41,662 nucleotides of DNA from Syntrophobacterales bacterium (lineage in GTDB: Bacteria; Desulfobacterota; Syntrophobacteria; Syntrophobacterales; Thermodesulforhabdaceae). Below are positions 8,214 through 20,085 of this stretch, one piece after another (position 1 is the first letter of the stretch; each line of letters begins with the position of its first letter). The translations under genes and the position numbers were made by a program. The notes beneath the pieces are model-generated. The model was not told where the DNA came from. It worked only from the letters and a program-made list of their open reading frames with translations, and did not search any database. The stretch is from positions 1 through 41,662 of the forward strand of contig JAOACS010000013.1 in NCBI GenBank assembly GCA_026417655.1. Reading direction: 5' to 3'.

Positions 8214-9215
8214 TTACCTTGAAGTAGATTTAATCTCGTTAATGGAAACCAATTCGATATTTCCACTTTGAATATCCTTTAGACCCCTTTTCAAGGTATC
8301 CAGCGTAACCCTATGAGGATGTCCGATAGCAATAGTTACATCCCCCCGTTCTTTGGCTATGTCTATAAGTCTCACCAGCTGAGTATTAACAAAAGTCACC
8401 GTTGGCTCATGATCCAGAAAAACATTTCTTCTGAAACACTTGACTCCCACATCTTTTGCCACGTCACAGGCTACAGTTTTATCGGTCGTTACGCTATCAA
8501 CAAAAAAGAGGTTTCTTTCCTTCAGTATTTCCATGAAAAATCTCATGCTATCCCTGTTCTCAGTAAATCTAGAACCCATGTGATTATTAACCCCCACCGC
8601 ACCAGGCACCTGTTCTAGAGCTTTCATAAAGAGCTTCCTTTGGGTTTCCCTACTTTGGCTTAAAAGGAGCGCTCCTTTTCCAGGATTCTTGTCAGGATAT
8701 TCATGGGGTTCCATAGGCATATGAAGTAATAATACCCTCCCATTTTTTCTGATCATCTTAGCCACTTCCCGGGAATATGATTCATAGGGCAATACAGCAA
8801 AGGCCATAGGATAAGGAAGCTCCAAAAATTTGCGAGCAATATCAAGGCTTCCTCCCATGTCGTCTATGATAATACTTATGCGACCTTGAGAAACAATTCG
8901 ATTCTTTAGATCCCCTGATGATTGTCGGTTAGGTCCATCATTTAGTAAGGTCTTCTCTTTGTTGTTATCCTGATAAGATTTAGTAGTTAATGATAGACTT
9001 TCTTTAACTTTCTCCAAGCCAGTTTTTTCAGAAAGCCCTATTTTAGTCTCGGTTACTTTTATGTTGCCCTCCCGGGATGACCAATAGACCCAGAAAAGAA
9101 GCCCTATCCATATTAGAGCTACAAAACTCCACAGTCTAAAAAACCACCTTCTTAGGATAGGGCTTTTACTGAAACCTTTGGCTTCCTTTTTCTCTCGCCT
9201 GAAGATTTTTGCCAT
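8214..9215 (-). CDS. Divergent polysaccharide deacetylase family protein (YibQ-like)
   Basis: A 333-residue protein anchored by one N-terminal membrane segment (about 25-46, after a basic stretch) with a periplasmic linker rich in Ser/Thr/Lys and a C-terminal domain from about residue 110. The domain opens RISIIIDDMGGSLDIARKFLELPYPMAFAVLP and holds LLLHMPMEPHEYP, VGVNNHMGSRFTENRDSM and FVDSVTTDKTVA. These are the hallmarks of the divergent polysaccharide deacetylase (YibQ/DUF610) family, a barrel related to NodB enzymes. The second and third Asp of IIDDMG and the histidines in HMPMEP and NNHMGS are plausible metal ligands. In enterobacteria yibQ sits beside envC, as here with ctpA between, which suggests a role in septal cell-wall turnover; its substrate is not established. 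Confidence 0.9.
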   Translation of the reverse strand: MAKIFRREKKEAKGFSKSPILRRWFFRLWSFVALIWIGLLFWVYWSSREGNIKVTETKIGLSEKTGLEKVKESLSLTTKSYQDNNKEKTLLNDGPNRQSSGDLKNRIVSQGRISIIIDDMGGSLDIARKFLELPYPMAFAVLPYESYSREVAKMIRKNGRVLLLHMPMEPHEYPDKNPGKGALLLSQSRETQRKLFMKALEQVPGAVGVNNHMGSRFTENRDSMRFFMEILKERNLFFVDSVTTDKTVACDVAKDVGVKCFRRNVFLDHEPTVTFVNTQLVRLIDIAKERGDVTIAIGHPHRVTLDTLKRGLKDIQSGNIELVSINEIKSTSR

Positions 9216-9232
9216 CTATAAACTACAACCCA

Positions 9233-10603
9233 TTAAGAAGGCTTTGCAAGAATTGTTAAGCCCTTTAACAAATCGAGGGCTCTTTGAAGTTGATTATCCT
9301 GCTCAAGCATCCTTTGAACCTCATCTAACTGTTTGGTTTTTGCGCCAATGCTTCTCCGCTTTTGTGAAGTATCGCCTTCTTTTTTAAGCTCCTCTTCTCC
9401 TCCACCATCTCCTTGCATATGTCCAGGAAGATCCTTTTCGCGTATGGAAAACCTACTTCTGGTCTGATCTGTATCCTTTGCCACTCTTTCTTCCCTTGGA
9501 ACGTAAATATCAGGTTCAATCCCCTTAGCCTGAATCGACCTGCCAGATGGGGTATAGTAAAGGGCTGTCGTAAGGCGAACTGCGGAACCATCCTCGAGAG
9601 GTATCACAGTTTGAACCGAGCCTTTACCAAAAGTAGGTTCTCCAAGGACAAGGGCTACCTTATGATCCTGGAGAGCTCCAGCAACAATTTCTGAGGCACT
9701 GGCACTTCCACCATTTACTAAGACGACTATGGGATACTTATGGGGTTTATCGTTTTTTCTAGCTTCAAACTTCATCTGCTGTTCTTCTTTTCTACCCTTG
9801 GTGTAAACAATAAGACCACTTTCTAAGAACTCATCGCTTACTTGAACAGCCTGTTCTAGAAGGCCACCGGGGTTATTCCTCAGGTCAAGAATCAATCCCT
9901 TCATGGGCTTGTTTTCCTGTTCCAGGACATCCAGAGCCTTTCTAAGCTGTTGAGAGGTATCACTTTGGAAGCTAGCAATCCTTACGTATCCAAAGCCAGG
10001 TTCTAGAGTCCTATATTTTACGCTCTGAATATGGATAAGAGCCCTTACAATCTCAAACTCCAGCGGTTTAGGCTCACCTTCTCGAATAATAGTAATACGC
10101 ACCTTGGTTCCTTCCGGTCCCCTTAAGCGCTTTACCGCCTCGGTAATACTCATGTCCTTGGTCGACTCGCCATTTATCTTAATGATCTGATCATTGGCCT
10201 TTATCCCAGCCTTGTCGGCAGGTGTCCCCTCAATTGGTGATACAACCGTCAAGATCCCATCTCTTATGGTAATCTCTATACCTATCCCACCAAAACTCCC
10301 TCTAGTCTCTACCTGTAACTCCTTATACTCATCCGGTGTCATATAGGTTGAATGGGGATCGAGGGACTGAAGCATCCCTTTGATAGCACCTCGAATTAAC
10401 TTTCCATCATCTACAGGTTCTACATACTGATCTTCCACGAGATTGAGAACTTCGCTGAATAGCTTAAGTTGTTTGAATATCGTATCACCCCTACTTTTCT
10501 TCTCCTCAGAACAGTAGGCAGTAATACCTTGGAAGATACCCCATAGACCCAAGAATACCAATAATCCCATTGGGATAAAAAGTTTTTTCTTGTTCTTTCC
10601 CAT
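9233..10603 (-). CDS. ctpA: C-terminal processing peptidase, S41 family (CtpA/Prc)
   Basis: A 456-residue periplasmic serine protease. The N-terminus has a membrane anchor (about 8-28). A PDZ domain (about 100-185) includes GGIGIEITIRDGILTVVSPIEGTPADKAGI. The S41 core follows, with LILDLRNNPGGLLEQAV and the catalytic set S302 (in NGGSASASE), K327 (in FGKGSVQ) and Q331, spaced exactly as in characterised CtpB. The hydrophobic LTTALYYTPSGRSIQAKGIEPD motif completes the core. The C-terminal ~75 residues are charged and low in conservation. CtpA enzymes trim or degrade periplasmic proteins, often cell-wall hydrolases. It lies between envC (gap 9) and yibQ (gap 17), in an order seen in several proteobacterial groups, so hydrolases or EnvC itself are reasonable substrates. 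Confidence 0.95.
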   Translation of the reverse strand: MGKNKKKLFIPMGLLVFLGLWGIFQGITAYCSEEKKSRGDTIFKQLKLFSEVLNLVEDQYVEPVDDGKLIRGAIKGMLQSLDPHSTYMTPDEYKELQVETRGSFGGIGIEITIRDGILTVVSPIEGTPADKAGIKANDQIIKINGESTKDMSITEAVKRLRGPEGTKVRITIIREGEPKPLEFEIVRALIHIQSVKYRTLEPGFGYVRIASFQSDTSQQLRKALDVLEQENKPMKGLILDLRNNPGGLLEQAVQVSDEFLESGLIVYTKGRKEEQQMKFEARKNDKPHKYPIVVLVNGGSASASEIVAGALQDHKVALVLGEPTFGKGSVQTVIPLEDGSAVRLTTALYYTPSGRSIQAKGIEPDIYVPREERVAKDTDQTRSRFSIREKDLPGHMQGDGGGEEELKKEGDTSQKRRSIGAKTKQLDEVQRMLEQDNQLQRALDLLKGLTILAKPS

Positions 10604-10612
10604 ACTCTTTAA

Positions 10613-11686
10613 TTAGTCTCCTTTCTTTGTATTAGTTTTTAAGGCAAACCACTGCCTTACATCCAATGGTTTTCCCTTGTGTCTCCACTCAAAATATATA
10701 CCACTTTCTCCCAAGACCTCAGATTGAGCCACTTCTCCGATTACATCACCCTGCTTAACATCGTCACCTTCGCTAACTCGGATCGATCCCAGGTAGGCGA
10801 TAACGCTAAAGTAATGATTTCCATGATCCACAATAACTGTGCGTCCAAACTCTCTAAACCATCCCGAATACACAACTTGTCCACTAGCAACCGCCCTAAC
10901 GGGAGTTCCATCCTTCGCTCTTATAAAAACTCCTTTACTATATACTAAAGGCACAGAATCGGCTTTCTTTTTTAGCTCCACACTGGTCTCCAGAACTCCG
11001 TCTTCTACAGGAAAAAGCAATGATCCCAAAGAGGCAAAGGAAGTTTTCGTTAGTTTGGACCTATTATGAGTTGTCTCATCACGTTGAAAGAAACTCCCAA
11101 AAGATCTGTCTTCTCTCCTATCCTCATCCTCTAATGCCTGCCTTTTCAAAACCTCTCTACTAAGGGATGCAAGATGTTGCAAATTCTTTTTGAAAGTTCC
11201 TTCCGCCTCTGTAAGTTCACGTAAATTCTTCTCCAGCACCTTTTCCAAGCGCCTTAGCTCTTCCATTTGCATTTTACAAGCCGCCTGTCTCCTAAGGCTT
11301 TCTTCAATATGAGCTCGAAGAACCAGTTCGGCATTCCACCAAACCTTCCCACCTAGAATCTTTTGGTTCGATAGAAACCGATTAAATACCATGATTCTAT
11401 GAAGTCTTATTAAATTTTCACTAGCCAGCCTCTTTTCTCGAACTAGCTCTTCTTCTAATAAATCGTAGACTCTTTTGTTTTCTCTAAGGGTCCTTGCAAT
11501 CTCAATTTTTCTTCTTTCACTCTCATTAACAATTTTTGCCATTTCGTCTATAGGAACCAATGACTGTTCTAAGGAAAAAGAGCGTGAAGGTGCCGTTAAT
11601 AGAGTAGCTAAAAATATCAATAAACATCCAGCAAAAACAGCTCTCCTCTTAGAAACCGATTTTTTTCTTAATCGGTCCATGTCCAA
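10613..11686 (-). CDS. envC: EnvC-like murein hydrolase activator with degenerate LytM (M23) domain
   Basis: A 357-residue protein with a membrane/signal segment (about 17-33), a long coiled coil (about 50-185) and a C-terminal LytM domain (about 225-345; KDGTPVRAVASGQVVYSGWFREFGRTVIVDHGN). The zinc ligands of active M23 peptidases are missing. The usual HxxxD is replaced in KGVFIRAKDG, the YAHL histidine is absent (VIAYLG), and the HLHFE pair has become SGIYFE. This is the signature of EnvC, which does not cut peptidoglycan but activates septal amidases and is itself gated by FtsEX. The gene overlaps ftsX by 19 bases and is followed by ctpA. An AMIN-Amidase_3 amidase, the expected partner, is encoded at 16725-17984. 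Confidence 0.92.
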   Translation of the reverse strand: MDMDRLRKKSVSKRRAVFAGCLLIFLATLLTAPSRSFSLEQSLVPIDEMAKIVNESERRKIEIARTLRENKRVYDLLEEELVREKRLASENLIRLHRIMVFNRFLSNQKILGGKVWWNAELVLRAHIEESLRRQAACKMQMEELRRLEKVLEKNLRELTEAEGTFKKNLQHLASLSREVLKRQALEDEDRREDRSFGSFFQRDETTHNRSKLTKTSFASLGSLLFPVEDGVLETSVELKKKADSVPLVYSKGVFIRAKDGTPVRAVASGQVVYSGWFREFGRTVIVDHGNHYFSVIAYLGSIRVSEGDDVKQGDVIGEVAQSEVLGESGIYFEWRHKGKPLDVRQWFALKTNTKKGD

Positions 11687-12594
11687 TCCATCTTAATGGA
11701 CAGGTTCCAACTCTTCCTAAAGGCCCATTCCGCCATTATCAAAATGAAACTTGCTACTACAAAAAGGGTTACAATAGAAGACCCCAGAAGGGTTTCTACG
11801 GAAAGAGAGCAGCTCTGGTTCGTTCCAAAGAAGTGTTCCAAATGTTTCAAGTATCTCTTGCTATATAAGAGAGCAAGGAGAGAAAGGGGCCACGCCAAAA
11901 CGATTATAGAAACGGCTTGAGTGTAACAAGCAAGGCGCTTAAATAGAGGTGATGCTCCTAGAAGATCCCAAAGATAAATCTCCCTCATACGGCGATAAAA
12001 GGAGATGCGAGTTAGCAAAAAGACCATAGTTACCATCACAAAAAGGAATAAAACAGTAAGGATTATAAAGAAACGCCTTATTCTTTCAAACCATAATTTG
12101 GTCTCGGATGCCAAAGCTACCCCTGAAAAGACGCTGTCAACAGCAGCATTAGAAGCGAGCTCATCCATAAAGGCTTGACACTTTTGAGGCTCCTCTAAAC
12201 AATGTCTACTCAAGGTGATCTCAAGATAGCCAGGCATAGTTGATGGATCCGCTAAAAAAGACTCTTTACCAAAGCTTTTAGCAAGCATTTCTACCTCTTT
12301 AGCCACCTCCTCTCCTGGAACTTCCCTAAGAGTTTCATACCACTTGCTATTCTGAATAATTTCAATAACCTTTTTACGGTCCTTTTCAGAGGCCTTAGCA
12401 TTCCACGAAATCATTGCAGCAGCCCTATTAGCCCATGGTGGCATAAGACAGGCCAAAACATTTTTGCCTCCCATTACAATTGGGCATGTAAAACAGACCA
12501 ATGTCGCACAAAGAACAGTTGCCGCGAAAGTGAAGGGTTCTTTAAGAATGTCCTGTAGGACCCGAGAAATAACAAATCCCCATGGAATTTTCAC
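11668..12594 (-). CDS. ftsX: Cell division permease-like protein FtsX
   Basis: FtsX is the membrane half of the FtsEX complex, which couples ATP hydrolysis at the divisome to activation of periplasmic cell-wall hydrolases. The 308-residue product has the family's four membrane segments (about 20-42, 174-196, 222-245 and 268-290). A large periplasmic loop of roughly 130 residues lies between the first two; it is the part that contacts EnvC in other bacteria. The cytoplasmic RRMREIYLWDLLGAS motif after the second helix is typical. The start overlaps the ftsE stop by 4 bases and its end overlaps envC by 19, so the three are translationally coupled. Confidence 0.95.
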   Translation of the reverse strand: MKIPWGFVISRVLQDILKEPFTFAATVLCATLVCFTCPIVMGGKNVLACLMPPWANRAAAMISWNAKASEKDRKKVIEIIQNSKWYETLREVPGEEVAKEVEMLAKSFGKESFLADPSTMPGYLEITLSRHCLEEPQKCQAFMDELASNAAVDSVFSGVALASETKLWFERIRRFFIILTVLFLFVMVTMVFLLTRISFYRRMREIYLWDLLGASPLFKRLACYTQAVSIIVLAWPLSLLALLYSKRYLKHLEHFFGTNQSCSLSVETLLGSSIVTLFVVASFILIMAEWAFRKSWNLSIKMDWTWTD

Positions 12595-13292
12595 AACCTG
12601 CTTTCTCCCGTTTTGGTCGGCCCAATCTCTACCAAATCTTTCTCATGAATCATAAGAACTTTGGCACCCTCAACCCATAGAGGAAGGCGGCGATCATGGG
12701 TCGCAACGATTAGAGTTTGTCCCCGCCTATGAAAGGCAGAAAAGAGTTTTAACACTCGTTTTGCATGTTCATCATCTAAATTTCCTGTGGGCTCATCGGC
12801 AAGAATCAAGATTGGGCTATGAACAATAGCGCGCCCAATAGATACAAGCTGGCGTTCACCTCCCGAAAGAAATCTACACCTGACTCTACGCTTTTCCTCA
12901 AGATTAACAAGTCTCAAAACGGCCATTACTCTTACTTTGATCTCTTCCTTTGAAAAACCCATTATAATTAATGGAAGCGAAATATTATCTTCCACGGTAA
13001 GATCCATAAGAAGTCTAAAATCCTGAAATACTATACCAATATGCCGACGCCATGTATGGATTCGAGAGGGGTAGAGTTTTCTAAGATTTTTCCCGGCAAC
13101 AAGAACTGTTCCCCCATCAAAGGATTCCTGACCTGAAATGATCTTTATAAGGGTTGTCTTCCCCGAACCACTAGATCCGAGAAGGAAGAGAAAATCTCCC
13201 GAACTAACGGAAAAGCTTGCGTTTTCAAAAATCCATTCACCTCCACTATAACGCTTATATAAATGTTCTACGAAGATGATGGGGTCTTTCAC
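12591..13292 (-). CDS. ftsE: Cell division ATP-binding protein FtsE
   Basis: FtsE is the ABC ATPase of the FtsEX complex. The 233-residue product has all ABC motifs: Walker A LGSSGSGKTTL (about 37-47), Q-loop GIVFQDFRLLMDLTVEDN, signature LSGGERQLVSIGRAI, Walker B ILILADEPTGNLD and the H-loop VATHDRRL. QDFRLL and the EPTGNLD block are characteristic of FtsE. The start is GTG at 13290-13292 with an AGAAGGG sequence upstream. It is the first gene of the eight-gene unit running to ligA and overlaps ftsX by 4 bases. Upstream is a 205-base divergent region shared with the gene at 13498. Confidence 0.97.
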   Translation of the reverse strand: MKDPIIFVEHLYKRYSGGEWIFENASFSVSSGDFLFLLGSSGSGKTTLIKIISGQESFDGGTVLVAGKNLRKLYPSRIHTWRRHIGIVFQDFRLLMDLTVEDNISLPLIIMGFSKEEIKVRVMAVLRLVNLEEKRRVRCRFLSGGERQLVSIGRAIVHSPILILADEPTGNLDDEHAKRVLKLFSAFHRRGQTLIVATHDRRLPLWVEGAKVLMIHEKDLVEIGPTKTGESRL

Positions 13293-13408
13293 CGGCTAAA
13301 ACCCTTCTGCCTATTTCTTTGGGATTTTTTCAGATGAAAATTATAAGAAATTCAGGAGAAAATATCATCCAGAAATTTGACTATCTTTCGGTCGCTAAAA
13401 AAGGTTCT

Positions 13409-13436
13409 TTGCCGAAAATCATAATTGGGGTAATTT
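13409..13436 (+). promoter_or_regulatory. Candidate promoter for the 13498-mutS unit
   Basis: TTGCCG (13409-13414) and TAATTT (13431-13436) are 16 bases apart in the divergent ftsE/13498 intergenic region, and a start near 13443 would suit the downstream gene. The -10 match is poor. On the opposite strand a TATAAT-like box at 13340-13345 could serve ftsE, but without a clear -35. Both are tentative. Confidence 0.3.
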
Positions 13437-13482
13437 AGAAAGTCATGTTTTGTAATGGACATCTATCAAAAACCAAGGGGTG

Positions 13483-13497
13483 AAAGGAGGCGGGAGG
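13483..13497 (+). promoter_or_regulatory. Ribosome binding site fixing the start at 13498
   Basis: AAAGGAGG (13483-13490) lies 7 bases before the ATG at 13498. A GTG at 13480 in the same frame would place this near-perfect site inside the coding region, so the ATG is preferred. Confidence 0.85.
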
Positions 13498-14034
13498 ATG
13501 GCTGAAATAAAGAGTACTATTGAGCTTGTAATGGAGCGAACTAAGCATCTCATTATGAGTAGTGAGGAAAAAGCCCAGCAAGAAGCAAAGGAGCTTATAG
13601 AGAAAATACCGGGATATATTCAGAAATTTCTAGATGGGTCTATAAAGGAGGAGGCTGTAACAGCGGCTTATCGGGAAATTCCAGAAGGATATAAGAGAGA
13701 AGCTAGGAAGAAGCTTATAGAATCGGTCCTTGAACGTGTCGATTTGGAAAGCCCAAAATCCCTATTTGTTCTCCTTCAAAATTTGCTTGGTGAGAAGGAC
13801 TTTCTCCTTTTTCAAGTAGCCGAATTAAGAGATATTCTTGCAACATATCACGAAAAGGCCGAAAAGCTTAAGGAAGAGATAAAACAAAAAATATCTACAC
13901 AGCTTACCGAAAAGAACATAAGTGGTGACGCTATACTCTTGATTCCAGAAGAGACCCCAGCTTATTACAATCTCACAAGGGATTATGAAAAAAGACTTCA
14001 CGATTTAAAACAGCGAATAACTAAAAATCTTTAA
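13498..14034 (+). CDS. Conserved-looking helical protein upstream of mutS, unknown function
   Basis: A 178-residue, soluble, charged protein, nearly all helix, with no signal peptide or membrane segment. It starts MAEIKSTIELVMERTKHLIMS. A regular helical middle holds YREIPEGYKREARKKLIESVLERV, LFVLLQNLLGEKDFLLFQ forms a hydrophobic helix, and the C-terminal half is a probable coiled coil (EKAEKLKEEIKQKIS and NLTRDYEKRLHDLKQRI). I do not recognise a named family and give no function. It is 12 bases upstream of mutS and very likely co-transcribed with it. The ATG was chosen over an in-frame GTG at 13480 because the latter would cover the ribosome binding site. Confidence 0.85.
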   Translation: MAEIKSTIELVMERTKHLIMSSEEKAQQEAKELIEKIPGYIQKFLDGSIKEEAVTAAYREIPEGYKREARKKLIESVLERVDLESPKSLFVLLQNLLGEKDFLLFQVAELRDILATYHEKAEKLKEEIKQKISTQLTEKNISGDAILLIPEETPAYYNLTRDYEKRLHDLKQRITKNL

Positions 14035-14046
14035 TGAAAGGGAAAG

Positions 14047-16728
14047 ATGAATTTCGAAGGTCAACCTAAGTTCTCTTCTCTCACTCCCATGATGCAGCAG
14101 TATCTTGCTATAAAAGCCCAGTATCCTGACGCTCTTCTCCTTTACAGAATCGGTGATTTTTACGAACTTTTTATGGATGATGCTATTGTGGCTTCAAAGA
14201 TTCTAAATATCGCTCTTACTTCTAGGGACAAAAATAGCGACACGGCAGTGCCCATGTGCGGGGTGCCTCACCATGCGGCTGAGCAATATATCGCAAAGCT
14301 TGTTTCAGCAGGCTACAAAGTGGCCATCTGTGAACAGGTTGAAGATCCAAGGTTTGCAAAGGGAATTGTAAAGCGAGAGGTAACTCGTGTTATCACTCCA
14401 GGGCTAATTCTAGAGGAACAAAATCTTTCAGCAAAACTCCCAAACTATATCTGCAGCTTAGCCCATAATGGGACTCTCTGGGGTGTTGCTTACATGGATG
14501 TATCGACCGGTGAATTTAGAGTAGTCGAAATATCGAATTTCACCGATGCCCTTGAAGAGCTCCATAGAATCGATCCTAGAGAACTCTTAGTGTCGGAAAG
14601 CCTCGAAAGTTCGATTATAGAAGAGATAGGAAAGCATTTCCAGATCGCCATTCCCACTCTTCCACCTGAATATTTTGATCAAGAAGCTGCTGAGGAGCGA
14701 CTATGCCATCTTTTTTCGGTCCATTCCCTTGAAGGCTTTGGCCTCCAGGGATTTTCGGTTGCTATAGGGGCCGCAGGAGCTCTTACAAGATATGCCGAGG
14801 ATAACAAGATATCGCTTTCCCACATTAAAGGACTCATCCCCTACAGCAGATCGGATTTTATGAATCTTGACGAAAATACCGAAAAGCATTTGGAAATCTT
14901 TTACTCCCAGAGTTTCCGTGGCCGAAAGGGATCCCTTATTGATGTGGTAGATAGGACCTGCACCCCCATGGGGGGAAGAATGTTACATCGCTGGCTCCGC
15001 TATCCCCTCCTTAAGAAGGCTCATATTATGGAGAGGCAAGATGCCATCGATGAATTGGTAAACCATCCTCAACTCCTTCGGGAAATACGATCCCATCTAG
15101 AATCCGTGGGAGACATTGAAAGAATACTTAGTCGGATAGCTGTAGGATCGGCAACACCAAAGGATATTTACGCTCTTAAGCTCTCTTTAAAGAAACTCCC
15201 TGATATTTATCAGCTAATAGACTCCTTAAAAAGTAACCTCTTTCAGGATATCAAAAATCAGTGGGATAATGGGGAGGAGATAGTATCCCGTATAGATTCA
15301 ATACTTATTGAGAATCCTCCTCTCAACTGGATATCCCAATCAATAATCAAGGATGGAGTAGACTTACAATTAGATGAATATAAACAGATTGCAAAGGATA
15401 GCAAGGGATGGCTTTTAAGGTTTGAGCAGCAGGAGCGTTCAAAAACCGGACTTTCATCTTTGAAGGTTAGATACAACAAGGTCTTCGGGTATTTTATCGA
15501 ACTTTCCAAAACTCAGGCATCCCAGGCACCCCCTCACTACCAGCGAAAGCAAACTCTTACAAACGCAGAAAGATTCATAACCGAAGAAATCAAAGCCTTC
15601 GAAACAAAGATCCTAGAGGCAGAATATCGAAGGCAGGAAATAGAAGAAGAATATTTTGAAAAGCTCAAGAGGGATATCTCCTCCCAAAGTGATCGGATTC
15701 ATCGCATGGCAAATATTGTTGCTATGCTAGATTGTATCGCCTCTTTAGCAGAACTAGCTATAACGGAAAGATACTGTAGGCCTCTTCTTACAAATGACGG
15801 CTCCATCATTATTAAAGAAGGGAGGCATCCAGTAGTTGAAAAATACCTTCCTAGGGGAACCTTTGTTCCCAATGATGTTGAGCTTAACATGAGCGATCAG
15901 CAGATACTTATCATCACCGGACCGAATATGGCTGGAAAATCTACTATCCTACGTCAAACAGCCCTCATAGTTTTGCTGGCCCATATAGGGAGTTTCGTTC
16001 CGGCTAAGGCTGCATATATAGGTTTGGTGGATCGAATATTTACTCGCATAGGGACTTCCGATGATCTTGCCAGGGGAAGATCAACCTTTCTGGTAGAAAT
16101 GCAGGAGGTAGCCTCTATACTTCACCGAGCAACGCCCCAAAGTCTTGTCATACTAGATGAGATAGGAAGAGGAACAAGCACATACGATGGAATGAGCATA
16201 GCTCAGGCCGTTATAGAGTATCTTCATGACCTACAGGGTGCTGGAGTGAAAACACTCTGTGCTACCCACTACCATGAACTAACGGAGCTTTCGGAGAAGT
16301 TCCCCCGTGTGAAAAACTTTAGTGTAGCTGTAAGGGAATGGCAGGATCGGATTATCTTTACCCATCGACTTGTCCCAGAAAGGGCCAGTAAAAGCTATGG
16401 GATCTACGTAGCAAAACTTGCGGGACTTCCGGAGCAAATCATAGAAAGAGCGAAAATCATTCTTAGGGAATTGGAAGCCCGTCAAGACGTGATGGCAGTG
16501 GAAAACCCAACTCGAGGCCAATCGGCGGTCAATAATATTTCCTATAATGAAGTTCCTCGTCGAATGTTACCAAAAAAGGTAGGATTCCAACTACCTATAT
16601 TAGGTCCTGCCGAGGAGTGGCTAAGGCAAGAAATCCTTTCCATCGATCTCGATAGAACCACTCCTTTGGGAGCTCTCCAAATCCTTTATGCAATCCAAGA
16701 ACGGCTGAAGAAGGAAAAAACACGATGA
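14047..16728 (+). CDS. mutS: DNA mismatch repair protein MutS
   Basis: MutS dimers bind base mismatches and small loops and recruit MutL. The 893-residue product has the full MutS1 layout. The N-terminal mismatch-recognition domain carries the DNA-wedging F38-x-E40 motif (GDFYELF) and VPMCGVPHHA. A connector and lever/core domains follow. The clamp region is near IDVVDRTCTPMGGRMLHRWLRYPL onward, and the C-terminal ATPase has Walker A GPNMAGKST (625-633). Further ATPase motifs are STFLVEMQEVASIL, Walker B LVILDEIGRGTSTYDG and the H-loop CATHYHEL. Length is normal (about 850-900). A GGGAAAG sequence precedes the ATG. Its stop overlaps the start of the amidase by 4 bases. Confidence 0.98.
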   Translation: MNFEGQPKFSSLTPMMQQYLAIKAQYPDALLLYRIGDFYELFMDDAIVASKILNIALTSRDKNSDTAVPMCGVPHHAAEQYIAKLVSAGYKVAICEQVEDPRFAKGIVKREVTRVITPGLILEEQNLSAKLPNYICSLAHNGTLWGVAYMDVSTGEFRVVEISNFTDALEELHRIDPRELLVSESLESSIIEEIGKHFQIAIPTLPPEYFDQEAAEERLCHLFSVHSLEGFGLQGFSVAIGAAGALTRYAEDNKISLSHIKGLIPYSRSDFMNLDENTEKHLEIFYSQSFRGRKGSLIDVVDRTCTPMGGRMLHRWLRYPLLKKAHIMERQDAIDELVNHPQLLREIRSHLESVGDIERILSRIAVGSATPKDIYALKLSLKKLPDIYQLIDSLKSNLFQDIKNQWDNGEEIVSRIDSILIENPPLNWISQSIIKDGVDLQLDEYKQIAKDSKGWLLRFEQQERSKTGLSSLKVRYNKVFGYFIELSKTQASQAPPHYQRKQTLTNAERFITEEIKAFETKILEAEYRRQEIEEEYFEKLKRDISSQSDRIHRMANIVAMLDCIASLAELAITERYCRPLLTNDGSIIIKEGRHPVVEKYLPRGTFVPNDVELNMSDQQILIITGPNMAGKSTILRQTALIVLLAHIGSFVPAKAAYIGLVDRIFTRIGTSDDLARGRSTFLVEMQEVASILHRATPQSLVILDEIGRGTSTYDGMSIAQAVIEYLHDLQGAGVKTLCATHYHELTELSEKFPRVKNFSVAVREWQDRIIFTHRLVPERASKSYGIYVAKLAGLPEQIIERAKIILRELEARQDVMAVENPTRGQSAVNNISYNEVPRRMLPKKVGFQLPILGPAEEWLRQEILSIDLDRTTPLGALQILYAIQERLKKEKTR

Positions 16729-17984
16729 AAATAATTTCCTCTGCCCTTCTAATAGTGGCCTTTTTAATCCTATCCTCTCCACTAGAGGGAAAGGAGAATT
16801 CCCCATCACGGAAACTACATTACATAAAGGACGTAACCCTTACGAAGAATCTAAGCTCAGCAAAACTTATTCTATCCTTTGACAGTCCAGTCTCTTATCG
16901 TTTTCTAGAAAAAAAACATGGAAGAGCTGAGAAAAAACTCATTCTAAGGATTGAAAACTGTGTGGTTAATCCAAGAATTGAGCGTATTCAACCTGACAAA
17001 ACCTTTATTAGGTTAATACAGATTGCTAATCATTACAGCAACCGATCGGGAAGTTCCGCTGAAATTGTAATATCGTCACCTAGAGATGTGGAATTTAGTC
17101 ATAACAACGAAAATAATCCCTTCCGAATAGTCATAACAATGACAAAACAAATCACTCCCGAAAAACCCTCTATTGTATCCCACCAGGATACTTCGGTTAC
17201 ACCAGAAAAGCAGGCTACCCCTGTCTTTGAAAGGGATAAAGTTGTTGAACCCTCCCCACTGAAGAGCCTGTCGGACTTACGCCTTATTGTAATAGACCCT
17301 GGACACGGGGGACGGGATAAGGGAGCAACAGGTTACAGAGGAATTTATGAAAAGGATTTGACCCTAACCTTAGCTAAGTCCTTAAAAAGTATCATTGAAG
17401 CTAGCGTTTCAGGTATAAGAGTAGAGCTTACACGTTACAGGGATGAATACGTTTCGCTCGAACAGAGGGTAAAAATTGCCAATTCTCTTAAGGCAGACCT
17501 TTTTATTTCTCTTCATTTCAATGCCCACGAAAACCGTTTAGTGCGGGGTATCGAAACCTACTATCTCAACATTTCCCAGGATAAGGAGGCGGCAAGAGTT
17601 GCCGCTATCGAAAACGCTGTCTTAAGAAAAAAAATGACAGACCTAGAGGCAATTCTTCAAGATCTCCTAAAAGCCAGTTCCATAGCCGAATCGGCAAGGC
17701 TTGCTAAAACCATTCATGGAAACATTGTAGACTCACTTAGAGGCCTTACAACTGATATAAAAGACCTAGGAGTGAAAAGTGCTCCATTTTATGTGTTGTT
17801 TGGAACCACTATGCCTGGTATTCTGATTGAAGCAGGATTTATTAGCAACAGGGAGGAACTTGAACTTATCAAATCTTCTCAGTTCGCCCAAGCGATTGCA
17901 AAAGGTATCCTTGAAGGAGTAAAATTGTATGCGGAGGGATCGGTCCATGACAGACCTTCTCTAACTTCACAGAAAAAGAAATAA
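16725..17984 (+). CDS. amiC: N-acetylmuramoyl-L-alanine amidase (AMIN + Amidase_3), AmiC/AmiB-like
   Basis: A periplasmic zinc amidase that cuts the bond between N-acetylmuramic acid and the stem peptide, splitting septal peptidoglycan. The 419-residue product has a signal peptide (about 1-21), an AMIN domain (about 31-140) for septal targeting, a Thr/Pro linker, and an Amidase_3 domain from about 185. Zinc ligands H194 (DPGHGG), E209 (YEKDL) and H264 (SLHFNAH) and the catalytic E369 (LIEAGFISN) are all present. Between the core strands is an inserted helical segment (about 285-325, DKEAARVAAIENAVL onward). It resembles the autoinhibitory helix of E. coli AmiA/B/C that EnvC or NlpD displaces. 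Overlap with mutS (ATGA) implies coupled translation. EnvC and FtsEX are encoded 3.4 kb away on the other strand. Confidence 0.94.
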   Translation: MKIISSALLIVAFLILSSPLEGKENSPSRKLHYIKDVTLTKNLSSAKLILSFDSPVSYRFLEKKHGRAEKKLILRIENCVVNPRIERIQPDKTFIRLIQIANHYSNRSGSSAEIVISSPRDVEFSHNNENNPFRIVITMTKQITPEKPSIVSHQDTSVTPEKQATPVFERDKVVEPSPLKSLSDLRLIVIDPGHGGRDKGATGYRGIYEKDLTLTLAKSLKSIIEASVSGIRVELTRYRDEYVSLEQRVKIANSLKADLFISLHFNAHENRLVRGIETYYLNISQDKEAARVAAIENAVLRKKMTDLEAILQDLLKASSIAESARLAKTIHGNIVDSLRGLTTDIKDLGVKSAPFYVLFGTTMPGILIEAGFISNREELELIKSSQFAQAIAKGILEGVKLYAEGSVHDRPSLTSQKKK

Positions 17985-18054: not shown

Positions 18055-20085
18055 ATGAACCAACAACAGGAACTTACACCTGGAACGGTTGTTGAATTCT
18101 ATCACGAGAAGAATATTTGCACAGGAGTTATACTTGGCACAAAGGGACAGCGATTGTTTGTGCTTTCGGATCAGAATAGAGAAATGAATATCTCACAGGG
18201 TAGAATTTTGGAAACGGTGGGTCCTACTTTGGATATAAGAGCAGACAGAGACAAACTTGTGGCTAGCCTTAGGGAGATAAGTGCTAAAAGAGAGGAACTT
18301 GCCGCAGAAATAGATATTGAGGACCTTTGGGGTCTTCTTGAGGAAGAAGGGGGAAGTTATTCCTTACGAGAGCTAGCAAGTTTTCTCTTTAACGACCTGG
18401 ATGTGCATCACCTCTCAGCGTTGGAAAGAGCCCTCCTCACCGATAAATTCTACTTTCAAAAAAAAGATGGTCTCCACATACCGCGTTCTAAAGAGGCTGT
18501 GGAACAGTTAAGAATTCAGGTAGAGCGAGAAGCCCTTAAGGAACGCACCCTTGAAGAAGGAAGCTCATGGCTTAGAGAGATATGGAAGACCCCTGGGGTT
18601 GTTTCTCAGGAACTATCATCTCAACAGCAGGATATTGTTGAGAAATTAAAGGATTTCGCCATAGCGGGAAATGAATCGGAACATTACGAATTCATAAAAG
18701 AACTATTTAAAAGGGCAGATCTAAATACCGATCCTTTGGTAGCCCTTCAGCTTCTTGTCAACATCGGTATATGGAAAGCCGATGAAAATATTCTTATTCG
18801 AAAATTTGAAATACCTCGTTATTTCTCGGAAAACCTTCTAGCCTACGCCGAAACTCTTGTAATGAAGACTCATCACGATCCCGTTGATGAAAAGCGAGAA
18901 GATCTTAGACACCTCTGGACGGTTTCAATAGATAGTGAAGAAACCAAAGACATAGACGATGCTATTTCCCTGGAGCGACTCGATCCTAACACCTTTCGAA
19001 TCGGTATACATATAACCGATGTGGCATCCTACGTCCCCCCCGGTGATCCTTTAGATATAGAGGCCCGATCCAGAATGACGTCCATCTATCTTCCCGATGA
19101 GAAAATTCCAATGCTTCCAACAATTATTTCGGAAAATCTATGTAGTCTTATAGCAAACGAAGACAAAAGGGCTATTTCGTTCCTACTTACGGTGGATCGT
19201 CAAGGTTCTGTAATGGAAACACAGATAAAACCGTCCTTTATTCGGGTCAAAGAAAGACTTTCCTATGAAGAAGTCACCAGAAGGATTCAAGGTGGAGATG
19301 AACATTTTAAAGTGCTTTACGAGATAACCTATGCCTTCAGAGAAGATCGTAAAAGTAGGGGAGCCATAGTTCTACATCTTCCCGAAGTCTATGCTACGGT
19401 AGATAGTGACGGCACTGTTCATATCAAAAAATATGATCGGGAAGAACAAAGTCAGGTCATAGTCTCAGAATGTATGATAGCTGCAAATACCTTAGCCGCG
19501 AAATTTTTTGCGGAACGAAATACTCCTGCCCTTTATCGAATCCAGGGAGAAACAAAGCAGGAAAATGATTCATACGGGGATGTGCACCCACTATTTACTC
19601 TTATGAGGCAGAGACGCCTATTTGCTAAAGCTGAACTCTCTACAACCCCTGAACGCCACTGTAGTCTAGGGGTGGAATGTTATTCAAGCATAACCTCTCC
19701 CATTCGTAGATACATGGATCTTGTACTGCAGCGTCAGCTTAGAGCATGTCTCATTGGCACTCTTCCCCCCTATTCCATCGAAGACCTTGAAGCAATTATA
19801 ACAGAGATGAACTCTACCTTACCCAAGGTGTTTCAGGTTACCAGACGTTGGAACCGTTATTGGATTCTTCGTTATATCGAGCAGGAGAACATCAAGAATA
19901 CAACCGCCCTCATACTGGACCATAACGATCGTAGTATTCATATAGTGCTTCCAGACTTCATGTTGGAGGCCTTTATACCAAAGAAATCAAACCGTTCCTT
20001 TGTTCTAGGGCAACTTGTTCCTGCCAAAATAGAAAGAGTAAAACCTCGCGAAGAGTCGATAATGATTGTCTTAAACACCAATTGA
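18055..20085 (+). CDS. RNase II family 3'-5' exoribonuclease (RNB domain)
   Basis: A 676-residue exoribonuclease that degrades single-stranded RNA from the 3' end. The RNB domain starts near residue 285. Its four metal-binding aspartates in SIDSEETKDIDDAISL (D293, D299, D301, D302) have exactly the spacing of E. coli RNase II D201/D207/D209/D210. Later RNB motifs follow (HITDVASYVPPGDPLDIEA, SIYLPDEKIPMLP, and SSITSPIRRYMDLVLQRQL). The N-terminal ~280 residues carry a short beta-rich segment (7-60) and helical wing-like regions. The C-terminus is short, with a weak S1-like strand pattern. The gene is 70 bases after amiC and 18 before the M20 gene; GAGGTG lies before the ATG. The paralogue, RNase II versus RNase R, is not settled, so no symbol is given. 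Confidence 0.93.
   Translation: MNQQQELTPGTVVEFYHEKNICTGVILGTKGQRLFVLSDQNREMNISQGRILETVGPTLDIRADRDKLVASLREISAKREELAAEIDIEDLWGLLEEEGGSYSLRELASFLFNDLDVHHLSALERALLTDKFYFQKKDGLHIPRSKEAVEQLRIQVEREALKERTLEEGSSWLREIWKTPGVVSQELSSQQQDIVEKLKDFAIAGNESEHYEFIKELFKRADLNTDPLVALQLLVNIGIWKADENILIRKFEIPRYFSENLLAYAETLVMKTHHDPVDEKREDLRHLWTVSIDSEETKDIDDAISLERLDPNTFRIGIHITDVASYVPPGDPLDIEARSRMTSIYLPDEKIPMLPTIISENLCSLIANEDKRAISFLLTVDRQGSVMETQIKPSFIRVKERLSYEEVTRRIQGGDEHFKVLYEITYAFREDRKSRGAIVLHLPEVYATVDSDGTVHIKKYDREEQSQVIVSECMIAANTLAAKFFAERNTPALYRIQGETKQENDSYGDVHPLFTLMRQRRLFAKAELSTTPERHCSLGVECYSSITSPIRRYMDLVLQRQLRACLIGTLPPYSIEDLEAIITEMNSTLPKVFQVTRRWNRYWILRYIEQENIKNTTALILDHNDRSIHIVLPDFMLEAFIPKKSNRSFVLGQLVPAKIERVKPREESIMIVLNTN

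Follow-up and report, generated by a model that had tools for sequence, protein, structure and literature searches.

Whether a run of neighbouring division genes forms one working control chain is the question raised by a stretch of DNA from a Syntrophobacterales bacterium (GenBank assembly GCA_026417655.1, contig JAOACS010000013.1), which was analysed over its whole length of 41,662 nucleotides and is called the window here. It carries genes for the ABC ATPase FtsE, the permease-like FtsX, a protein resembling EnvC, and an N-acetylmuramoyl-L-alanine amidase of the Amidase_3 family. In this study, we find that these genes probably encode an FtsEX-EnvC-amidase chain that would work like that of Escherichia coli, with a rough probability of 0.75. 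The gene set is complete but ordinary. What is new lies among the relatives, in which FtsEX-EnvC decays stepwise with the docking helix of the amidase kept. The window is contig 24 of a 2.3 Mb genome in 31 contigs, estimated to be 96% complete, and gene calls and profile searches confirmed FtsE, FtsX, the EnvC-like protein, the amidase and the processing peptidase CtpA where an earlier, sequence-only reading had placed them. The parts of the proposed chain are the following.

12591..13292, minus strand: ftsE, ABC ATPase (TIGR02673, 236.3 bits, cut-off 264.85; motifs intact)
11668..12594, minus strand: ftsX, permease-like (TIGR00439, 40.9 bits, below cut-off; PF02687, 24.9 bits, just below; alignment)
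10613..11686, minus strand: gene for the EnvC-like activator (PF01551, 87 bits; best NCBIfam match EnvC, 66.7 bits, cut-off 270)
11111..11551, minus strand: EnvC coiled coil, residues 46-192 (AlphaFold model; alignment to E. coli EnvC)
10646..11023, minus strand: degenerate LytM domain, residues 222-347 (alignment; fold match)
16725..17984, plus strand: Amidase_3 N-acetylmuramoyl-L-alanine amidase, 419 amino acids (PF01520, 179 bits)
17571..17720, plus strand: regulatory insertion of the amidase, residues 283-332 (alignment to AmiA, AmiB, AmiC and 29 relatives)

The LytM domain of the EnvC-like protein appears to be of the activator type, without a zinc site, which bears out what the sequence-only reading had supposed. 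Its five zinc and catalytic columns read S-F-Y-G-Y. At these places E. coli EnvC has W-V-Y-S-Y, and the genome's second M23 protein has H-D-H-H-D. The last two columns adjoin an alignment gap, and the full set was found in none of the aligned proteins (the window EnvC and 29 relatives). At the positions of E. coli EnvC K321, Y401, and R405, the window protein aligns with K, Y, and R. These three residues are named as needed for amidase activation in E. coli EnvC, and E403 is not so named, in the excerpts available of PMC10336132 (the other papers cited below are likewise drawn on as excerpts). The equivalents of Y401, E403, and R405 are invariant in all 15 aligned rows. The sequence relatives of the window protein in the PDB are FtsEX-EnvC structures (8tzk, 8i6o, 8hd0, 6tpi, 4bh5, and 8c0j). 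An AlphaFold model built from three sequences (mean pLDDT 57) gives helices 46-107 and 113-192 as an N-terminal antiparallel coiled coil, with pLDDT of about 60-88 across most of residues 46-192, followed by a LytM fold. The modelled LytM part matches the EnvC LytM structures 4bh5 and 8c0j with Z of 11.3-11.4, a match that, at a local pLDDT of about 50-66, indicates the fold class only. Against full-length Vibrio cholerae EnvC (8tzl_E) the model gives an rmsd of 13.8, and unrelated coiled coils give similar scores. Translation of the gene probably starts at the ATG at 11680, which is likelier than the TTG at 11686.

The motifs of FtsE are all intact (Walker A GSSGSGKT, C-loop LSGGE, DEPTG, and TH). 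FtsX contains, in its periplasmic region, a pair of cysteines separated by six residues (C132 and C139, window positions 12178-12201). All five family f1 sequences in the FtsX alignment have counterparts of this pair, and the four remaining sequences have none; a disulfide near the EnvC-binding lobe is possible.

The amidase retains all of its catalytic residues, as had been claimed for it: H194, E209, H264, and E369 align with AmiA H65, E80, H133, and E242 and are kept in the window protein and in all 29 relatives. AmiA Asp135, which is a zinc ligand in the resting state only, corresponds to Asn266, and Asn stands there in all 29 relatives too. The insertion lines up with the blocking and interaction helices of AmiA. 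E296 corresponds to AmiA E167, the latch Glu on the blocking helix, and is present in 29 of 29 relatives, and the docking residues L185, V188, L189, and L192 of AmiA are L307, I310, L311, and L314, kept in 29, 29, 29, and 28 of the 29. The docking helix thus has a conserved hydrophobic face, and most of its remaining positions are variable. Of the earlier claim of a helical insertion at the site of the autoinhibitory helix, the position stands, whereas its helicity is suggested by the alignment; single-sequence AlphaFold modelling of the amidase was uninformative (pLDDT 34.5). At the polar position 313 of the docking helix, Asp occurs in 95% of 19 rows from genomes with EnvC versus 45% of 11 rows without it, relatedness not being removed. 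No AMIN domain reached the Pfam cut-off in the window amidase (16.4 bits, cut-off 20.5), although the amidases of four other genomes (G002, G004, G007, and G009) do reach it. A TPR-like stretch, over its cut-off in the amidase of G062 and just under it in those of G007 and G009, was not found in the window amidase.

Taken over from E. coli, the mechanism would run as follows. FtsE would hydrolyse ATP, and FtsX, gripping the coiled coil of EnvC, would relay the resulting movement into the periplasm. With its groove then uncovered, the zinc-less LytM domain of EnvC would receive the interaction helix of the amidase (L307/I310/L311/L314), the blocking helix with its latch Glu296 would be drawn off the zinc, and the freed amidase would cut septal peptidoglycan. 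The docking and blocking-helix part is modelled on what excerpts of PMC10268282 describe for the E. coli amidase; how the parts bind, how ATP use is coupled, and that the window EnvC pairs with the window amidase are inferred.

The inventory of the genome agrees with a simple chain. A single Amidase_3 protein was found (counts here refer to Amidase_3, the Amidase_2 and Amidase_5 families lying outside the search), together with two M23 proteins, namely the EnvC-like protein and L001 (847-1929). The Csd3_N2 domain and the HxGxD, GHL, and PHLDF-type motifs of the latter mark it as a MepM/Csd3-type protein rather than an EnvC or NlpD. A second EnvC- or NlpD-type protein, which the sequence-only reading had named as a refuting case, was not found in this 96% complete genome. 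The usual M23 motif is HxH; in the M23 proteins of the second type (L001 and L098-L107), which have HxGxD, GHL, and PHLDF except for the first motif of L099, its second His is Asp in all those whose motif was read.

Several observations weigh against this reading. All three proteins of the activating arm fall under their NCBIfam equivalog cut-offs, FtsE with 236.3 against 264.85 bits, FtsX with 40.9 against 255 bits, and EnvC (PRK11637) with 66.7 against 270 bits; we therefore call them FtsEX-type and EnvC-type, not members of the equivalogs. E. coli EnvC V324, Y350, and V353 are replaced by F, F, and T in the window protein, and nothing in the window amidase aligns with AmiA L184, although among the changes described in excerpts of PMC10268282 that of L184 had the mildest effect. 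The EnvC coil is shorter than that of E. coli, residues 128-214 of the latter aligning with 99-146 of the window protein, and the model, at its modest confidence, has no helix between residue 193 and the LytM domain; a working restraining arm is uncertain. Residues 154-192 do align with the beginning of the E. coli restraining arm, and I240 of E. coli EnvC aligns with L172, 54 residues before the LytM domain compared with 61 in E. coli; some 40 residues of the arm may still be there. Complete loss of the arm was considered but is not favoured: relative to E. coli EnvC the protein lacks about 60 residues, which the alignment assigns mostly to the coil. Finally, the docking helix alone cannot prove an EnvC partner, since each of the 11 EnvC-less genomes whose amidase was aligned retains the latch and docking residues, apart from a single L to I change. 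Nevertheless, in the window species every part of the chain is intact and no alternative has come to light, which makes a chain of the E. coli type the best reading.

How closely such an amidase is tied to EnvC can be judged from 147 genomes sampled across the phylum, 39 of them belonging to the order. EnvC was scored as present at a best E<1e-45, a threshold set after seeing the data, and FtsX by a match over most of its profile, the partial matches in G024, G029, and G043 being left out. On this scale EnvC occurs in 77 of the 147 genomes, with four genomes whose EnvC matches lie below the threshold (G117, G106, G069, and G093, all with Amidase_3) counted as EnvC-less. Amidase_3 accompanies EnvC in 74 of 77 genomes compared with 52 of the 70 EnvC-less ones (Fisher P 2e-4, or 0.016 when genus g12 is set aside, relatedness not being removed in either case); the amidase-less status of G143 is deduced from its absence in the list of amidase matches. 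EnvC is thus nearly always accompanied by the amidase, which counts in favour of the chain, and the amidase is often found without EnvC. That EnvC is the sole partner of this amidase type finds no support here, as many relatives keep the amidase and its docking helix without EnvC. In genus g12, which belongs to the order, eight of 11 genomes (G016, G021, G023, G025, G030, G032, G036, and G038) contain no Amidase_3, and an EnvC match was found in none of the 11.

Within the order, the three genes behave as one losable unit. Fifteen genomes have both EnvC and FtsX, 20 have neither, three have only FtsX, and one, G035, has only EnvC, located at the end of a contig. In G008, G022, and G031, ftsE-ftsX is retained, envC is gone, and ctpA follows; in G031 (L141) a remnant resembling envC and containing a stop survives, with 46% identity over 46 amino acids. 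The FtsE proteins of these genomes (L141 of G031, L142 of G022, and L143 of G008) have lost the LSGGE C-loop and the His of the H-loop, both of which are kept in all eight EnvC-bearing genomes, that of the window among them, examined from families f1 and f2. In G012, EnvC is present and FtsE is partly eroded. All three genomes of genus g8 have orf184, the first gene of the plus-strand block, directly beside ctpA-deacetylase, with ftsE-ftsX-envC absent in between. The decay of FtsEX-EnvC in the order is stepwise: envC is lost, the FtsE motifs are eroded, and then all three genes are gone. The literature searches made turned up no paper on the loss of FtsEX-EnvC in this bacterial group; excerpts of PMC7873302 report FtsEX, EnvC, AmiC, and NlpD in cable bacteria.

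The retention of the docking helix while FtsEX-EnvC decays suggests that a second activator of the division amidase may exist in the relatives. Extended to the window species, this would mean that another protein, perhaps not of the LytM type, is the main activator, that FtsEX-EnvC is a dispensable input in some lineages, and that the docking helix serves the other partner. Such an arrangement would explain why the amidase and its helix persist through the order as FtsEX-EnvC decays or vanishes, with docking residues intact in the 11 EnvC-less genomes and no M23 protein at E<=1e-3 in three EnvC-less genomes (G008, G011, and G022, which give weak matches only at relaxed E). However, the analysis turned up no candidate for such a partner, folding of the amidase into its autoinhibited form may be what keeps the helix face, a LytM protein that has diverged strongly would escape detection, and FtsEX-EnvC is intact in the genome of the window itself. 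We consider it unlikely for the window species. For the order as a whole, the stronger proposal that its single amidase is activated mainly by a non-EnvC, and in some genomes non-LytM, protein, that FtsEX-EnvC is optional and decaying, and that the docking helix is kept because that protein uses it, is somewhat less doubtful and is offered as a tentative one. In the relatives the amidase is not tied to EnvC, and its docking face must serve either some other function or a different activator.

A different question is whether the chain forms a genetic unit, as the sequence-only reading implied by placing the whole of it in one region on divergent strands. The genes are ordered ftsE-ftsX-envC-ctpA-deacetylase on the minus strand and orf184-mutS-amidase-RNase R-like on the plus strand, the further members being the following.

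9233..10603, minus strand: ctpA, S41 C-terminal processing peptidase (PF03572, 209 bits; TIGR00225, 380.7 bits, over cut-off)
8214..9215, minus strand: divergent polysaccharide deacetylase of the YibQ/SddA type (PF04748, 254.6 bits)
13498..14034, plus strand: orf184, conserved, 184 amino acids (no Pfam family over cut-off)
14047..16728, plus strand: mutS (NF003810, 1053 bits)
18055..20085, plus strand: RNase R/II-like gene (gene order; name read from sequence alone)

Across the 22 loci whose gene order was compared, each block is stable: mutS-amidase-RNase R is kept in 15 of 15 amidase loci, the RNase R/II-like gene trailing the amidase across the whole class, and ftsE-ftsX-envC-ctpA in seven of eight EnvC loci. 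In G042, unlike the other EnvC loci compared, FtsX (C1:953867) and EnvC (C1:1645301) lie far apart. All genes of the chain are present in one region, as had been said, but their reading as one control unit is not supported. That the two blocks form a co-regulated divergent unit whose closeness was functionally selected could appeal to their nearness in both genomes of the genus and to a separate, one-strand array in the distant family f14 (both genomes, G062 and G134), which runs ftsE-ftsX-envC-ctpA-deacetylase-x-x-amidase, the middle genes of G062 being by Pfam a Na/Pi transporter and Ppx/GppA. Two families with EnvC and amidase within 10 kb, among 37 with EnvC, would arise by chance with P of about 0.02-0.04, a post hoc estimate. 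Yet of the 11 genomes, out of 59, in which the blocks share a contig, just the window genome and that of its sister species have them less than 10 kb apart, the distance elsewhere being 43 kb to more than 2 Mb; orf184 and mutS separate ftsE from the amidase; and the sister species has a 3.7-kb stretch containing two open reading frames between orf184 and ftsE. Promoter-like sites in the gap between ftsE and orf184 are near chance (two observed, 1.0 expected), and on this count and the 3.7-kb stretch a shared divergent promoter was rejected. The clustering of the blocks is at most suggestive, a selected divergent unit is in our judgement very unlikely, and the closeness of the blocks is probably of little mechanistic weight.

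For orf184 we place the start codon at ATG 13498, where the conserved MAEIKST sequence begins, in preference to GTG 13480, the start given in the gene list. It is found in 75 of the 147 genomes, including nine of 11 of the EnvC-less genus g12, and was on this ground rejected as a part of the FtsEX pathway. In several genomes it stands divergent from ftsE; in G002 and G003 it lies beside other genes.

CtpA, which has GGSAS and GKGSVQ motifs, had been suggested to remove a part of the chain, and its cleaving or degrading EnvC or the amidase could reset the system. The adjacency of envC and ctpA in all eight EnvC loci compared, and in Pseudomonas aeruginosa as given in excerpts of PMC12569750, is what speaks for such a role. 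Against it, CtpA and the deacetylase are still present in 3 of 3 genomes that lack ftsE-ftsX-envC, and CtpA remains where envC alone is gone, in G008, G031, and, as far as the contig reaches, G022. As the two genes are not tied to ftsE-ftsX-envC, the suggestion that CtpA trims the chain goes unsupported. Moreover, the Pseudomonas CtpA substrates in excerpts of PMC12569750 are mostly predicted endopeptidases, and the MepM/Csd3-like L001 would be the likelier substrate here. A CtpA reset of the chain is thus highly improbable.

The window offers a clean natural case, one Amidase_3 with one EnvC-type activator, and could be useful as a minimal system. The relatives without FtsEX-EnvC but with the docking helix are natural deletion experiments on alternative activators of division amidases, and the docking helix without EnvC is the part worth following.

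Among known systems, the closest likeness is to FtsEX-EnvC-AmiA/AmiB of E. coli, with which, going by excerpts of PMC7668044, PMC10268282, and PMC12505981, the window shares the same components, a zinc-less LytM domain with K, Y, and R, intact FtsE motifs, and an amidase with the AmiA/AmiB zinc set, latch Glu, and docking hydrophobics. It differs from E. coli in its shorter EnvC coil, in Asn266 at the place of AmiA Asp135, in its single Amidase_3, and in the joining of ftsEX to envC-ctpA, ftsEX being located elsewhere in E. coli, in which a gene bearing the name of the deacetylase also follows envC. The order envC-ctpA-deacetylase is shared with the envC-ctpA-PA5135 operon of P. aeruginosa (excerpts of PMC12569750), except that the window has ftsE and ftsX ahead of envC. 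As described in excerpts of PMC10336132, DipM, a LytM protein of Caulobacter that regulates several autolysins, likewise has a regulatory LytM domain without a working catalytic site and a conserved Arg equivalent to EnvC R405. In contrast to DipM, in which the equivalents of K321, V324, and Y401 are changed, the window EnvC retains the K and the Y, contains a coil of the EnvC type, and is encoded next to ftsX.

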